64,000 nt of DNA from Methanocaldococcus infernus ME. Its GTDB lineage: Archaea > AGJL01 > Methanococci > Methanococcales > Methanocaldococcaceae. The position numbers and the translations under genes were made by a program. The stretch's first letter is position 1. Each line of letters opens with the position of its first letter. Shown here one piece after another: positions 44,033 through 49,724 of the stretch. The notes under the pieces are model-generated. The model did not search any database. It was not told where the DNA came from and was given only the letters and a program-made list of their open reading frames with translations. The stretch lies in the NCBI RefSeq assembly GCF_000092305.1, contig NC_014122.1, positions 434,001-498,000 on the forward strand, read 5' to 3'.

Positions 44033-44919
44033 AGTGTAAGTGTGGGAATGAAGGAATATATTATCAAGCATATTCAAATAAATATTTATGTGAAAACTGT
44101 TTTAAGGAGGAGGTTGAGAGAAGAGTAAAGAAAGTAGTAAAGCCCTATATGAAGAGAGGAGTGAAAATAAATATAGGGATTAGTGGAGGGAAGGATAGCT
44201 TAGTTATGGCTCACATTTTAAATAAACTATCTTACCCTGAGGTTAAGTTAAGATGTATTTTTATACATGAAGGTATTGAAGGATTTAGAGATAAAGCTTT
44301 AAGAGTAGTTAAGAAGTTCTGTGAAAAGGAAGGGTTGGAGTTAAAGGTTATCTATCTGAAAGAAGAGTTTAACTATACTTTAGATGAGATGATCACTTTA
44401 TTAAAAGAATATAAGCCCTGCTCAATCTGTGCTGTTTTTAGAAGATACTTGTTGAATAAGTATAGTAAAGACTCTGACTACTTAGCCATAGGACATAACT
44501 TAGATGACCATGCTCAAACTATTCTAATGAACTATATTGAGGGGAATATAAAAAATATTATTTACTTTGGTAAAGATGCTGAAGGTTTTGTTAAGAGAAT
44601 AAAGCCACTAAAGTATGTTCCTGAGGAAGAGGTTAAGTTTTATGCTGACCTTGTAAAATTAGAGTATCAAAAAGAGCCTTGTCCTTACTCTTCTCTATCC
44701 TATAGGCATAAGATGAAAGAAATTATTAAACTGTTGGAGAAGATGAAGCCAGGAGTTAGGTTTAGTATAGTTAGAGGCTATGAGAAATTAATTAAATTGA
44801 TAAACTATGAGGAAAAAATTAATAGATGTAAAAAATGTAACTATCCTTGCTCTGGAGAGTTATGTAAAGTTTGCCAATATTTAGAATTAATTAAAGAGAG
44901 GATGAAAAATGAACTATGA
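44029..44919 (+). CDS. tRNA 2-thiolation enzyme NcsA/TtuA family
   Basis: A 296-residue enzyme of the TtuA/Ncs6 family. An N-terminal zinc ribbon (CKCGNEG...CENC) is followed by the PP-loop INIGISGGKDSLVMAH, the catalytic cysteine region CSICAVFRRYLL, GHNLDDHAQTILMN and a C-terminal zinc ribbon (CKKCNYPCSGELCKVC). It thiolates uridine in tRNA and in this subgroup carries a 4Fe-4S cluster. Whether it acts on U34 or U54 cannot be decided here. ATGA overlaps join it to both neighbours' frames. Confidence 0.88.
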   Translation: MKCKCGNEGIYYQAYSNKYLCENCFKEEVERRVKKVVKPYMKRGVKINIGISGGKDSLVMAHILNKLSYPEVKLRCIFIHEGIEGFRDKALRVVKKFCEKEGLELKVIYLKEEFNYTLDEMITLLKEYKPCSICAVFRRYLLNKYSKDSDYLAIGHNLDDHAQTILMNYIEGNIKNIIYFGKDAEGFVKRIKPLKYVPEEEVKFYADLVKLEYQKEPCPYSSLSYRHKMKEIIKLLEKMKPGVRFSIVRGYEKLIKLINYEEKINRCKKCNYPCSGELCKVCQYLELIKERMKNEL

Positions 44920-46645
44920 ATATGTTAAAAAAATCTTATCTAAGAAGTTGAATTTAACTGAGGATGAGATTGAAGAGAGAGTTAAGGGGTTAATAAATGA
45001 GTATGGGGGAATTATAACCAAGGAAGCTGCCATTTTAATGCTTGCTAAGGAGGAAGGGATAGATATTGAGGAAGAGCCAGAGGAAGAGTTTAAAATTAAA
45101 GATCTTGAAGATGGAATGATAGTGAGTATAAAGGGAAAGGTTTATGATGTTAGGGAGAGCTCAACAGAGAGTCAGAGGGTTATAAACTTAGTTATTGGAG
45201 ATGAAACTGGCTATGTCCCTGTAACACTTTGGAACATTAATATAGAGTTGGAAGAAGGAGATATTATAGAGCTAAAGAAGGTTAGGGTTAAGAGGAAAAA
45301 GAGATTATCCTTAGTTTCCACTGATGAAACAGAGGTTATTAAGCTTGGAAAGGAAGAGGTTGAAACTAAGAAAATCAAAGACTTAAATATTGGAGACTTT
45401 GCAATTATTGAAGGCTCTGTCTTCTCTTCCCTACCCATAAAGAGATTTGAAAAGGGAAAGTTCAGATCTTTCATTTTGTCTGATGGAGAAGACAGTATAA
45501 GAGTTGTTTTATGGCACGACCTTGCTGACACTGAGATAAGGGTTGGAGACCTTGTTAGAGTTAAAGGTTGGATAGTCCCTAATTATTATAATCCTAACCA
45601 ACTTGAATGTAGTGCTACAAATATAGAGATCTTAGAAAGAGCAGATGGAGAGATTGAAGTAGTCCCTATTGAAGATTTAAAATATAGAGATGAAGGAGAG
45701 AGGGTTTCAATAAGAGGAAAAGTTTTAGCTAAGAGCTTAAAGAGAACTGTTGAGCTTGAAAAACCTATTAAAGTACAAGATTTGATAGTTGAAGATGAAA
45801 CAGGAAGGGTTAAAATAACCTTTTGGGGGATGGGCTGTAGTCACTTAGATAATGTAAGTGAGGGAGATATAGTTTTAATAAAGAACTGTAAGGTTAAAAA
45901 ATATGTTGGGATGGATGGAGAGGAAGTGATAAGCTTAAATGCTGGAATAGATAGTGAAGTGATCATAGAGAAAAAGGGAGAAGTTAAATTCAACAAAATA
46001 AAGGAGATACTTGAAGAAAACTTAGATATTGCCAATGTCTTTGGAGTGGTTACAGATGTGAAGGATAATATTGTTGAGGTTGATGGAGTTAAGAAGAGGG
46101 TTAAAAATGTTATTATAGATGATGGAACCCCTATAAGGTTAACCCTCTGGGAGGAAGCTGCTAACATAGAGCTGGAGGAAGGGGATGTTATTAAGGTTTA
46201 TAATGCAAGTGTTAAAAAGAATGAGCTGGTTTTAACAAGATATGGGAGGATAGAGAAGGTTAGATTTTACAATAAGAAGTTCATCATTGAGCTCATAGAG
46301 GATGAGTTATCAGAGGTTAGGGGAACAATAGTTAAGAAAGAAGAGGATGAAATTGAGCTTTGTCCAATTTGTAGGAGAAGAGTTATAAATGGAGAATGCC
46401 CAAACTGTGGAATAGTTGAAGCTGAGAAGGTTAAGCTCTTAAGAGTTATGTTAGATGATGGCACTGGAGTCTTAGAATGTAGAGCCTATGGAAAGAGAGC
46501 TGAGAAGTTAAATAGAGAGTTAGGAGATGAAATAGTGATCTATGGAATACTAAAGAATAAAATATTTAATGTTAAAGCTATAAAGAGATTTGATATAAAT
46601 AGGGAGATAGAGTACTTAAAGAAAGTCTTAGAGGAAGAAAGATGA
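44909..46645 (+). CDS. rpa: Single-stranded DNA-binding replication protein A (RPA)
   Basis: A 578-residue single-polypeptide RPA. A short helical N-terminus is followed by about four OB folds, recognisable from repeats of the form GMIVSIKGKV...VINLVIGDETGYVPVTLW, with starts near 65, 165, 275 and 385. A further OB-like C-terminal part holds a zinc finger CPICRRRVINGECPNC near residue 487. Methanocaldococcus RPA has this domain order. It protects ssDNA in replication and repair. It overlaps both flanking genes, so it is co-transcribed with ncsA and the phosphorylase-like gene. Confidence 0.92.
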   Translation: MNYEYVKKILSKKLNLTEDEIEERVKGLINEYGGIITKEAAILMLAKEEGIDIEEEPEEEFKIKDLEDGMIVSIKGKVYDVRESSTESQRVINLVIGDETGYVPVTLWNINIELEEGDIIELKKVRVKRKKRLSLVSTDETEVIKLGKEEVETKKIKDLNIGDFAIIEGSVFSSLPIKRFEKGKFRSFILSDGEDSIRVVLWHDLADTEIRVGDLVRVKGWIVPNYYNPNQLECSATNIEILERADGEIEVVPIEDLKYRDEGERVSIRGKVLAKSLKRTVELEKPIKVQDLIVEDETGRVKITFWGMGCSHLDNVSEGDIVLIKNCKVKKYVGMDGEEVISLNAGIDSEVIIEKKGEVKFNKIKEILEENLDIANVFGVVTDVKDNIVEVDGVKKRVKNVIIDDGTPIRLTLWEEAANIELEEGDVIKVYNASVKKNELVLTRYGRIEKVRFYNKKFIIELIEDELSEVRGTIVKKEEDEIELCPICRRRVINGECPNCGIVEAEKVKLLRVMLDDGTGVLECRAYGKRAEKLNRELGDEIVIYGILKNKIFNVKAIKRFDINREIEYLKKVLEEER

Positions 46646-48204
46646 AGAAGACAGCCTATTTTTGTATGGAGTTTGCTATAGATCAGGCTCTAAAAACCTA
46701 TGCTGGAGGGCTTGGCTTCCTTGCAGGCTCACACTTTAGAGCAGCTAAGAGGTTAAATCAGCCCTTGGTTGGAGTCTCCATACTATGGAGCTATGGTTAT
46801 TATGACCAAGTTAGAGATGTCAATGGAGATATGGAAGTGAAGTACATAAGAAAATATTATGAGTTCTTAGAAGACTTAAACTTCAAATTTTCCATTAAAA
46901 TAAATAATAGGGATGTTTGGGTTAAGGTTTATAAGTTAGAGGAAGATGTCTTTAACACTTGCCCAATCTATTTTTTAACCACTGACATCCCTGAAAATGA
47001 TGACTTTGGAAGGGAAATTAGTTATAGGTTGTATGATGCCAACAATCTTTTACATGTGGCTCAAGAGATTCTCTTAGGGAAGGGAGGTTACATAGCTATA
47101 AAAGAGCTTGAGAAAGATGTTGAATTATTCCACATGAATGAGCCCCACTCTCTACCATTGGTTTTTAAGATGCTCTCTGAGCATAACTTAAGCTATGTTA
47201 AAGAGCATGTAGTTTTCACTACTCACACCCCTCTACCAGAGGGAAATGAGGTTCAAGATCTAAACTTCTTAAATTCAATGAACTTCTTTGAAGATGTTAG
47301 CTTAGAGGTTGCTAAAAAACTTGGTGGTGAGCCCTTTAACTATACTGCCTGTGCTTTAAGGGTTAGTAAAAAAGCTAATGCAGTGTCTAAGAGGCATAGG
47401 GAAGTTTGTGAAGAGATGTGGAGAGGTTTAAAGGATAGGTGTGAAATTATGGCTATAACAAATGCTCAAGATAGGCATTATTGGCAAGATTCTATAATAA
47501 AGGAGGCTGCTGAGAAGTATGATATAGATCTATTAAGGGAGAGAAAGTTAGAGCTTAAAGAGATCTTATTTGAAGAAGTTGCTGATCAGACAGGAAAGAT
47601 TTTTAAAAAGAATAGGCTAACAGTGGTTTGGGCAAGAAGATTTGTTCCCTATAAAAGGCCATACATCTTACTATATGATGAGAGGAAGCTTAGGGAATTA
47701 ATAAAGAAAAAGAAAATTCAAGTAATATGGGCAGGTAAGCCACATCCAGCAGATAGTAAGATGATAGCAACCTTCAACTATATAGTTTCAAAAACAAGAA
47801 GCCTTAAAGGAGCTGCTATCTTAACTGGATATGAGTTAAAGTTAAGTAAGATGTTAAAGCAAGGCTCAGATATATGGCTCAACACTCCTAAGTTAAAGCA
47901 TGAAGCCTCTGGAACTTCAGGAATGACTGCTTCAATGAATGCCTCTATTCACATGAGCACCTTAGATGGCTGGCATGTAGAATGGGCTAAGATGTATCCA
48001 GATGATAGCTTCACCATAGGAGATGGAGTTAGGGATGATGATGAATATGTTGCTAACTGTATCTACTCTCTACTCTCAGATGTCTCTGATCTCTATGACA
48101 CTGAAGCTTGGTGGATCAAGGCTTGTAACTGTGTAAATCATATAGTTGAATACTTTGATGCTGAGAGGATGGCTAAAGAATATGCTGAGAAATTATATAA
48201 ATAA
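46642..48204 (+). CDS. Alpha-glucan phosphorylase-family (GT35) protein lacking the PLP lysine
   Basis: A 520-residue protein. It has the short GT35 phosphorylase pattern: AYFCMEFAIDQALKTYAGGLG, VGVSILWSYGYYDQ, FHMNEPHSLPL, VFTTHTPLPEGNE, VVWARRFVPYKRPY and KPHPAD. The active-site stretch reads HEASGTSGMTASMNA, with Thr where typical short phosphorylases have the PLP-binding Lys (GTSGMK). It may therefore not be a PLP-dependent phosphorylase; a glucosyltransferase or an inactive form is possible. The nucleotide reading (gga atg act gct) was checked. It couples to rpa by ATGA. Confidence 0.8.
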   Translation: MKKTAYFCMEFAIDQALKTYAGGLGFLAGSHFRAAKRLNQPLVGVSILWSYGYYDQVRDVNGDMEVKYIRKYYEFLEDLNFKFSIKINNRDVWVKVYKLEEDVFNTCPIYFLTTDIPENDDFGREISYRLYDANNLLHVAQEILLGKGGYIAIKELEKDVELFHMNEPHSLPLVFKMLSEHNLSYVKEHVVFTTHTPLPEGNEVQDLNFLNSMNFFEDVSLEVAKKLGGEPFNYTACALRVSKKANAVSKRHREVCEEMWRGLKDRCEIMAITNAQDRHYWQDSIIKEAAEKYDIDLLRERKLELKEILFEEVADQTGKIFKKNRLTVVWARRFVPYKRPYILLYDERKLRELIKKKKIQVIWAGKPHPADSKMIATFNYIVSKTRSLKGAAILTGYELKLSKMLKQGSDIWLNTPKLKHEASGTSGMTASMNASIHMSTLDGWHVEWAKMYPDDSFTIGDGVRDDDEYVANCIYSLLSDVSDLYDTEAWWIKACNCVNHIVEYFDAERMAKEYAEKLYK

Positions 48205-48265
48205 TAATTTTCACTAAAAATTATAATTAGAAAAGTTGAAGGGGGGCTTGTTAAGGGGGATTGTC

Positions 48266-48877
48266 ATGAGTCTATTAAAGCCAATTTTCAAGCTTATTGA
48301 GATATCTAAAGAAGCTGTTTCTAATATGGAAGGTGCCTTTTCTGAGCTAACTGGGGAAAATGTAAATATCTTCTTTTTAGGGTTAAGATTTGCTTTAATT
48401 GATTTTGTCCCTGAACAGTTTGGAGAGGAATTTTATAAATCTGTTAGAATAGACTTTAATGGAGCCTTGTCTGGGAAGAGTTTAATTTTAATCCCAGAAA
48501 AAGATGCTGTGAAGTTAGAAAAGCTTTTATTAGTTGATATTTTATGGGATAGCTTAGTTCATAAATCTGATCTTCCAGATTATGAAGAGCTGGAAAGCTC
48601 TTTAATTGGAGAGGTAGGAAATATAGTAGTATCAGCATTTTTAAATGTCTTTGCAAATAAATTAAAAGATGAGATTAACATAACTCCACCTGAGTTTATT
48701 AAGGATGTAGGATTTTCAATAGTTGAGAGTGTAATAGCTGAAATTTCTGAAAAAAGTGATGTAGTTATGCTATTTGACATAAAAGTAGAGATAATAGGAA
48801 AATTCCCAATAAAATGTTATTTATTAATTTTAATAGACCCAGACTCACTATCTAAGTTAGACAAGCTCTTTACTTAG
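48266..48877 (+). CDS. cheC: CheC-family chemotaxis protein
   Basis: A 203-residue protein from the ATG at 48266, preceded by AAGGGGGATTG; an upstream start at 48236 lacks a site. It has the duplicated alpha/beta layout of CheC/CheX. The second half carries the intact phosphatase motif ESSLIGEVGNIVVSAFLN. The first half reads EISKEAVSNMEGAFSEL, where the usual E-x-x-N spacing is altered, so perhaps only one site is active. It would dephosphorylate CheY-P. It converges on cheR with an eight-base overlap. Confidence 0.8.
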   Translation: MSLLKPIFKLIEISKEAVSNMEGAFSELTGENVNIFFLGLRFALIDFVPEQFGEEFYKSVRIDFNGALSGKSLILIPEKDAVKLEKLLLVDILWDSLVHKSDLPDYEELESSLIGEVGNIVVSAFLNVFANKLKDEINITPPEFIKDVGFSIVESVIAEISEKSDVVMLFDIKVEIIGKFPIKCYLLILIDPDSLSKLDKLFT

Positions 48878-49724
48878 CATCAACTGGCTTCTGATAAATT
48901 CTCTCTCTTGCATTGTAAGTTTTAAATAATTTTTTAGCTTCTCCATGTAAGATTTCAGTTTTTCCTAAGACTAAAAAGCCTCCAGGGTTTAGAGCTTCAT
49001 AGAACTTTAAAAATATTTGCTCTTGAACCTTTTTATCAAAGTATATAATAACATTTCTACATAGAACCATGTCCATATCTTTTAAAGGTGGATCCTTAAT
49101 TAAGTCATGATATTGAAACTTAACATACTTCTTAACTATTGGCTTTATCATGTATTCCTCTTCATTGAGCTTAGTAAAGTACTTCTCTATAATATTTGGA
49201 GGCAAATTTTTCAATTGTTTTATGTGATAAACTCCTCTTCTTGCTTTATTTAAAACTTCCTTATCTATATCTGTTCCTATGATAGTAACATTTAATAGCT
49301 TCCTTTTATATTTCTCCATAGCTTCATTCACTATAATAGCTATTCCATATGGTTCCTCTCCAGAAGAACAACCAGCACTCCAAATTCTTATTTTTCTTCT
49401 TGTTCTGTCAGAAACCCATCCCTCTATAATCTTCTGAATTTCCTTATAAACAGTTATATCTCTCCAGAACTCTGTAACATTAACTGTTAAAGTCTCTGCA
49501 AGTTCCTCATGCTCCTCTTTATGAGTTCTTAAATATTCATAATACTCTTTTAGTGAGTTACACTTAGTAGCCTTTAACCTAACCCTCAACCTTCTTAAGA
49601 TATAGTTAGGCTTATATTGACTAACATCTATCTTTAGCACATTTTTTATAAAATCAACAATCCTTTTATAATACAATTTTTCAGTTGGATCTAACTTTTC
49701 AGGGGAATCTACAAGAGTAACCAT
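48870..49724 (-). CDS. cheR: Chemotaxis protein methyltransferase CheR
   Basis: A 284-residue CheR. The helical N-terminal domain includes NYILRRLRVRLKATKCNSLKEY. The SAM-binding domain has TVNVTEFWRD, RIWSAGCSSGEEPYGIAI, IIGTDIDKEVL, VLCRNVIIYFDK and NPGGFLVLGKTE. It methylates glutamates on methyl-accepting chemoreceptors. AGGAGGAGAAATAAAT precedes the ATG at 49724, three bases after the ZPR1 stop. Receptors, cheA and cheY are not in the window. Confidence 0.95.
   Translation of the reverse strand: MVTLVDSPEKLDPTEKLYYKRIVDFIKNVLKIDVSQYKPNYILRRLRVRLKATKCNSLKEYYEYLRTHKEEHEELAETLTVNVTEFWRDITVYKEIQKIIEGWVSDRTRRKIRIWSAGCSSGEEPYGIAIIVNEAMEKYKRKLLNVTIIGTDIDKEVLNKARRGVYHIKQLKNLPPNIIEKYFTKLNEEEYMIKPIVKKYVKFQYHDLIKDPPLKDMDMVLCRNVIIYFDKKVQEQIFLKFYEALNPGGFLVLGKTEILHGEAKKLFKTYNARERIYQKPVDAK

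Follow-up and report, generated by a model that had tools for sequence, protein, structure and literature searches.

A GT35-fold subfamily of archaea and bacteria without the pyridoxal phosphate lysine

How does a protein built like a glycogen phosphorylase work when the lysine that would tether its cofactor is missing? The question is raised by a gene of Methanocaldococcus infernus ME that lies in a window of 64,000 nucleotides, the whole stretch of DNA that we analyzed. In the accessible text of a 2024 review, family GT35 is described as dependent on pyridoxal phosphate (PLP) (PMC11046441). Here a whole GT35-fold subfamily, found in archaea and bacteria, is without the PLP lysine.

Results

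A GT35-Like Gene with Threonine at the Lysine Site

The open reading frame (ORF) runs intact from ATG to stop (Table 1). The active-site stretch of its protein is EASGTSGMTASMN, which reads EASGTSGM-T-ASMN around Thr429, a position that we take to be K680 of rabbit phosphorylase. The protein lies above the curated cut-off of TIGR02094, the model of short alpha-glucan phosphorylases, and scores 46 bits against PF00343 (cut-off 27). The host genome (1.33 Mb, one contig) has a single TIGR02094 gene. The GlgA profile TIGR02095 did not match the window protein even with an E limit of 10, and the GT4 profile PF13439 gave 13.1 bits (E 0.1), below its cut-off of 28.5. Some frames of bacterial relatives without the lysine reach 41–51 bits against TIGR02095, far under the cut-off of 328. 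The EPCGL active-site motif of GT5 is absent; EASGTSG stands instead in all 44 lysine-less rows of our alignment.

The gene starts within the stop of the upstream ORF, through an ATGA overlap of 4 bases (46642–46645). This replication protein A-like ORF probably does not belong to the lysine-less system, and such a neighborhood seems particular to the window; in loci L001–L004 the ORF upstream of the lysine-less gene is of another length or strand. Downstream, at 48236–49724, the translations read as CheC- and CheR-like chemotaxis ORFs. Within the window, the gene adjoins no glycogen genes.

Table 1. Features of the lysine-less gene and its upstream neighbor, in window coordinates
Feature	Position	Strand	Details and basis
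Lysine-less GT35-like gene	46642..48204	+	520 aa; TIGR02094 355.7 bits, cut-off 191.7
Thr429, at PLP (Schiff base) lysine position	codon act, 47926..47928	+	sequence and alignment
Active-site stretch EASGTSGMT, E421-T429	47902..47928	+	alignment
Phosphate-binding stretch R332, R333 ... K338	47635..47655	+	alignment; R333, K338 invariant
His195, sugar-binding His equivalent	47224..47226	+	invariant
N274-A275-Q276	47461..47469	+	lysine-type enzymes have N-G-V/I there
E398, S402, K406, clade-specific invariants	47833..47859	+	alignment and model
Upstream ORF, 578 aa, resembles replication protein A	44909..46645	+	sequence reading

The Lysine Is Absent from an Entire Clade

By similarity to the window protein, 45 loci were gathered from genome contigs. 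The site is T, S, or A in 43 of them and K in two (L041 and L042), whose proteins show 30–31% identity; L022 has a lysine-less ORF plus a second, lysine-type ORF. The bacterial lysine-less relatives, which come from Bacteroidota, Campylobacterota, and Akkermansia, show 43–48% identity. In an alignment of 76 rows (44 lysine-less and 32 lysine-type), the PLP-lysine column is K in 5/5 long phosphorylases and 27/27 short lysine-type proteins, and non-K in 44/44 lysine-less rows (T in 29, S in 12, A in 3). Among the Methanococcales, 30 of 36 genomes have the lysine-less gene, with T or S at the site in every copy read. Since the clade with T, S, or A includes bacteria, the lack of the lysine is a trait of the subfamily and not an oddity of methanogens.

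So that membership of the group would not depend only on the site, we also masked the motif in the 44 lysine-less and 32 lysine-type sequences, made profiles of the two sets, and used these to score all gathered ORFs. All 81 ORFs of the lysine-less type were non-K (T 53, S 24, A 4) and all 47 of the phosphorylase type carry K; since the site itself had served to divide the training sets, this result is a check and not an independent discovery. For these 47 lysine-type-like ORFs, the pattern reads K in 44; in the remaining three, which have GTSGQK, it fell elsewhere in the protein.

An earlier note, made from the window sequence alone, had placed a threonine at the PLP-lysine site, given by a clean act codon in an intact gene whose other motifs are retained, and had proposed to check whether the threonine is conserved and whether a correct alignment would put a lysine there. 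The threonine, its codon, and the intact gene are all as described, the sugar- and phosphate-binding residues prove invariant, and conservation extends to T, S, or A in the wider clade, with no lysine at the site in any of the 44 lysine-less rows. GTSGMK as the form of short phosphorylases also holds, with the amendment that variants GTSGEK and GTSGQK exist. A sequencing artifact or local mutation as the cause of Thr429 is ruled out, since the trait is clade-wide, and so is a misalignment that masks a lysine: each lysine-less row reads EASGTSGM and then T, S, or A. Very divergent archaeal short phosphorylases that do have the lysine were seen at L170:1227-2762, L073:1465-2991, and L050:1486-3057; they are about 510–525 aa long, read GTSFMK, GTSWMK, and STSTMK, and have no N-terminal extension.

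In a tree of the 76 rows, for which the five long phosphorylases served as outgroup, all 44 lysine-less rows form one clade (SH-aLRT 99) that spans Methanococcales, Bacteroidota, Campylobacterota, and Akkermansia and splits into an archaeal and a bacterial side. With this outgroup, the short lysine-type rows group as one side with a support of only 11. With a GT5 outgroup, where long branches meet, neither a lysine-less-first root (AU p 0.63) nor a long-phosphorylase-first root (p 0.61) is rejected.

Catalytic Residues Are Kept and the Pocket Face Differs

E421, H195, N274, T425, and W281 are present in 44/44 lysine-less rows, as is the unchanged run E421, A422, S423, G424, T425; R333, K338, and Y397 are invariant in the alignments. 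We take E421, H195, N274, R333, K338, Y397, and T425 to be E672, H377, N484, R569, K574, Y648, and T676 of the rabbit enzyme, T425 and Y397 presumably being the residues for the PLP phosphate. These E, H, N, R, K, Y, and T residues are common to the lysine-less clade and the short GT35 phosphorylases (TIGR02094, e.g., 9l6i). The two differ in that the lysine-less clade has T, S, or A for the PLP lysine and other invariant residues around the pyridoxal pocket.

Derived from 36 lysine-less versus 7 lysine-type rows, the set of invariants specific to the lysine-less proteins comprises E398, S402, K406, A275-Q276 (A275 in 35/36), S30, K71, P367, and G396. E398, S402, and K406 follow an i, i+4, i+8 spacing, one helical turn apart; E398 lies at, and S402 and K406 within, a helix of the model (399–408) that follows Tyr397. 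S402 is presumably at the Ala653 position, beside PLP. K406 is the clade-specific invariant lysine nearest to the site, K in 44/44 lysine-less rows and V, I, or T in 32/32 lysine-type rows. In these alignments, the surroundings of the vacated pyridoxal pocket are rewritten, with the sugar and phosphate residues kept. Retaining GT-B enzymes have an EX7E motif whose second Glu contacts the nucleotide sugar; the PLP lysine, eight residues past the glucose-binding Glu, stands at what we take to be the place of this second Glu.

The model of the window protein (pLDDT 96.4, pTM 0.93) has the GT-B fold of glycogen phosphorylase, and phosphorylases rank first in its Foldseek comparison. Segatella copri phosphorylase 9l6i leads (Z 35.3, rmsd 2.0 over 512 residues, 29% identity), and E. 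coli MalP 1l5v has Z 33.3. ADP-bound glycogen/starch synthases (2qzs, Z 32.8; 6gne, 32.7; 6gnf, 32.1) tie with most phosphorylases. The GT5 synthases carry out retaining transfer to alpha-1,4-glucan ends; one of them, E. coli GlgA (2qzs), has the GT-B fold in common with the window protein but differs from it in active-site motif and profile, with rmsd 2.9 over 436 residues and 16% identity. For a control model of the lysine-type protein L049 (pLDDT 87.9), the best 50 matches were phosphorylases only, down to Z 32.4. Because the control model does not match the window model in length or quality, the synthase tie is a hint and weak evidence, and it may reflect the conformation of the model only. 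By sequence, a position of the lysine-less proteins nearer to GT5 is unsupported: hhalign to GlgA gives 63 for the lysine-less and 83 for the lysine-type set.

Genome Context Ties the Gene to Glycogen

In Campylobacterota the lysine-less gene sits in glycogen clusters with pgm (phosphoglucomutase), pgi (glucose-6-phosphate isomerase), glgA, glgB, and a sugar nucleotidyltransferase fused to a phosphomutase, together with a GH57-like ORF (by sequence reading; without an NCBIfam match); the gene set varies by genome. Between the lysine-less gene and the nucleotidyltransferase, two loci have a 99-aa ORF (L021:4335-4631 and L025:1633-1929) that reads like a lone CBM48 glycogen-binding module and has no NCBIfam match. 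In seven Chitinophagaceae-type loci (L027, L029, L031, L035, L037, L039, and L045), the gene immediately upstream encodes an Hsp20-like small heat shock protein, and four of these (L027, L035, L037, and L045) also have FtsH, neighbors that suggest a stress setting.

Among 30 lysine-less genomes reached through the loci, the lysine-less protein is the sole kind of GT35 in 28; the other two (G073 and G074, Campylobacterota) have a second, lysine-type GT35. Eight of the 30, one Akkermansia and seven Bacteroidota (G066, G078, G079, G080, G084, G085, G087, and G092), carry two lysine-less copies. A sample of 148 Bacteroidota genomes, classed by hit pattern, divides into 19 lysine-less, 80 short lysine-type, 28 with only below-cut-off hits of the long-phosphorylase kind, and 21 with none. 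Where sequences were read (6/19 lysine-less, 33/80 short lysine-type, and 5/28 long), all fit their class. No other GT35 kind was found in any of the 19 lysine-less Bacteroidota genomes, and the two kinds exclude each other (Fisher p 3e-13, phylogeny ignored), a pattern that fits replacement of the phosphorylase by the lysine-less protein.

Synthases are frequent beside the lysine-less gene. Of 48 bacterial lysine-less genomes, 30 have GlgA over cut-off, 1 has a partial GlgA at the end of its contig, and 7 have GT3, so a synthase missing from all lysine-less genomes is ruled out. Since most of these bacteria already have a glycogen synthase, their missing step would be degradation. The remaining 10 comprise 1 with GlgM, 2 with a GlgE domain, and 7 with none of the four: 5 Akkermansia-like genomes plus G168 and G203, the last two with short GT5-like frames. 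Among 36 Methanococcales genomes, a GT5-like synthase and the lysine-less gene occur together in 25, neither occurs in 5 (including one single-contig genome), the lysine-less gene stands alone in 5, and the synthase in 1. This coupling (Fisher p 0.0035, phylogeny ignored) indicates that the lysine-less gene goes with glycogen metabolism. Three genomes (G021, G025, and G026; 97–98% complete) have the lysine-less gene and no GT5-like synthase at E 1e-60; their lysine-less proteins are intact, with T at the site.

The Akkermansia-like set consists of 4 Akkermansia and 1 MAG close to them, with completeness not given. In all five, GT5 matches do not go beyond 55 bits, neither GT3 nor a GlgE domain was found, and GlgM does not exceed its cut-off; all five have the lysine-less protein and a branching-enzyme-like ORF (674–695 aa, 245–264 bits, below the cut-off of 464). 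If Akkermansia makes glycogen, the lysine-less protein is the only candidate that we saw for chain growth. Akkermansia goes unmentioned in the available text of a review on gut commensals (PMC10395257).

Discussion

The function of these proteins is most likely alpha-glucan glucosyl transfer without Schiff-base PLP, and the branch probably moves glucose by chemistry unlike that of the PLP phosphorylases. The earlier note had suggested a glucosyltransferase that works without PLP; this fits as far as Schiff-base PLP is concerned and is less secure for PLP as such, given the invariant K406 beside the pocket. As to the partner, we lean slightly toward a nucleotide sugar rather than phosphate, because the pocket appears open and because of the situation in Akkermansia; the exclusion seen in Bacteroidota is a strong counterargument. 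Our tentative reading, held with a little less than even confidence, is of a GT35-fold alpha-glucan (glycogen) subfamily without Schiff-base PLP in which the likeliest ligand of the pocket is the nucleoside of NDP-glucose. With the Schiff-base lysine gone, the sugar- and phosphate-binding residues are still present. Both phosphate sites would be retained, the tether lost, and the pocket left free for something else; that only T, S, or A occurs at the site suggests that the pocket is kept open because another ligand occupies it. The nucleoside would fill the vacated pyridoxal pocket, and the two phosphates of NDP-glucose would occupy the substrate-phosphate and PLP-phosphate sites of the phosphorylase, a placement modeled on ADP-glucose in glycogen synthase. 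It counts against NDP-glucose that no nucleotide-binding residue was identified and that the lysine-less profile is no nearer to GlgA than the lysine-type one. In the accessible text of the 2024 review, PLP is proposed to have entered an NDP-sugar-dependent proto-GT35 as a surrogate for a nucleoside monophosphate (PMC11046441). A fuller version of the nucleotide-sugar reading, possible but somewhat more doubtful, has the branch as an NDP-sugar-dependent GT35 with the nucleotide in the place of PLP, either as the pre-PLP state or as a return to it, and as the missing glycogen synthase of Akkermansia.

A PLP-free alpha-glucan phosphorylase is a close rival. It would run the glycogen phosphorylase reaction with inorganic phosphate, a bound anion or the protein taking the role of the PLP phosphate; we consider it somewhat less likely than the nucleotide-sugar reading. 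The idea draws on the genomes, where the lysine-less protein is so often the only GT35 (28/30, and 19/19 in Bacteroidota) and a GlgA, one of them partial, or GT3 is at hand in 38/48 bacterial cases, and on the accessible text of a Methanococcus maripaludis review, which assigns MMP1220, presumably the lysine-less protein, as glycogen phosphorylase and MMP1294 as UDP-glucose glycogen synthase (PMC4902934). In the part available of another review, GT4 and GT35 are classed together as SNi-like retaining phosphorylases (PMC8950772). A PLP-free phosphorylase is harder to reconcile with G073 and G074, which hold a lysine-type GT35 together with the lysine-less gene, with a site so small (T, S, or A) that the pocket is seemingly unfilled by the protein itself, and with Akkermansia, in which no enzyme for building the polymer would remain. 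Retaining GT4 trehalose phosphorylases work without PLP and are a possible precedent for such retaining GT-B phosphorolysis, but their substrate differs, and the GT4 match of the window protein is subthreshold. PLP might instead still be used, either bound with no Schiff base at all or attached to K406 as a relocated lysine. The strict presence of K406 in the lysine-less rows and nowhere among the lysine-type rows, its modeled place on a helix adjoining the pocket, and the conservation of T425 and Y397, which we take to hold the PLP phosphate, would all agree with this, but K406 aligns one helical turn past the putative Ala653 residue, and a clade-wide loss of the catalytic tether with the cofactor kept would be unusual; we regard retained PLP as improbable. 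Least probable is a noncatalytic or differently acting relative, such as a glycogen-binding regulator: it would account for the absent cofactor lysine and for a gene that need not, and in the window does not, adjoin other glycogen genes, but a binding protein would have no need of catalytic sugar and phosphate residues that are invariant across archaea and bacteria.

The open-licence PMC literature, in the portions accessible, yielded no description of a GT35 protein that lacks the PLP lysine. The lysine-less protein should not be annotated as a glycogen phosphorylase that depends on PLP. PLP dependence is assumed for GT35 as a family. Because lysine-less proteins pass the phosphorylase profile cut-off, models of metabolism in methanogens, Bacteroidota, and gut Akkermansia that rely on the phosphorylase name may carry the wrong reaction there. 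If the branch is PLP-free, its sugar and phosphate sites being those of the phosphorylases, it would also make testable the proposal that PLP entered an NDP-sugar-using ancestor in place of a nucleotide.
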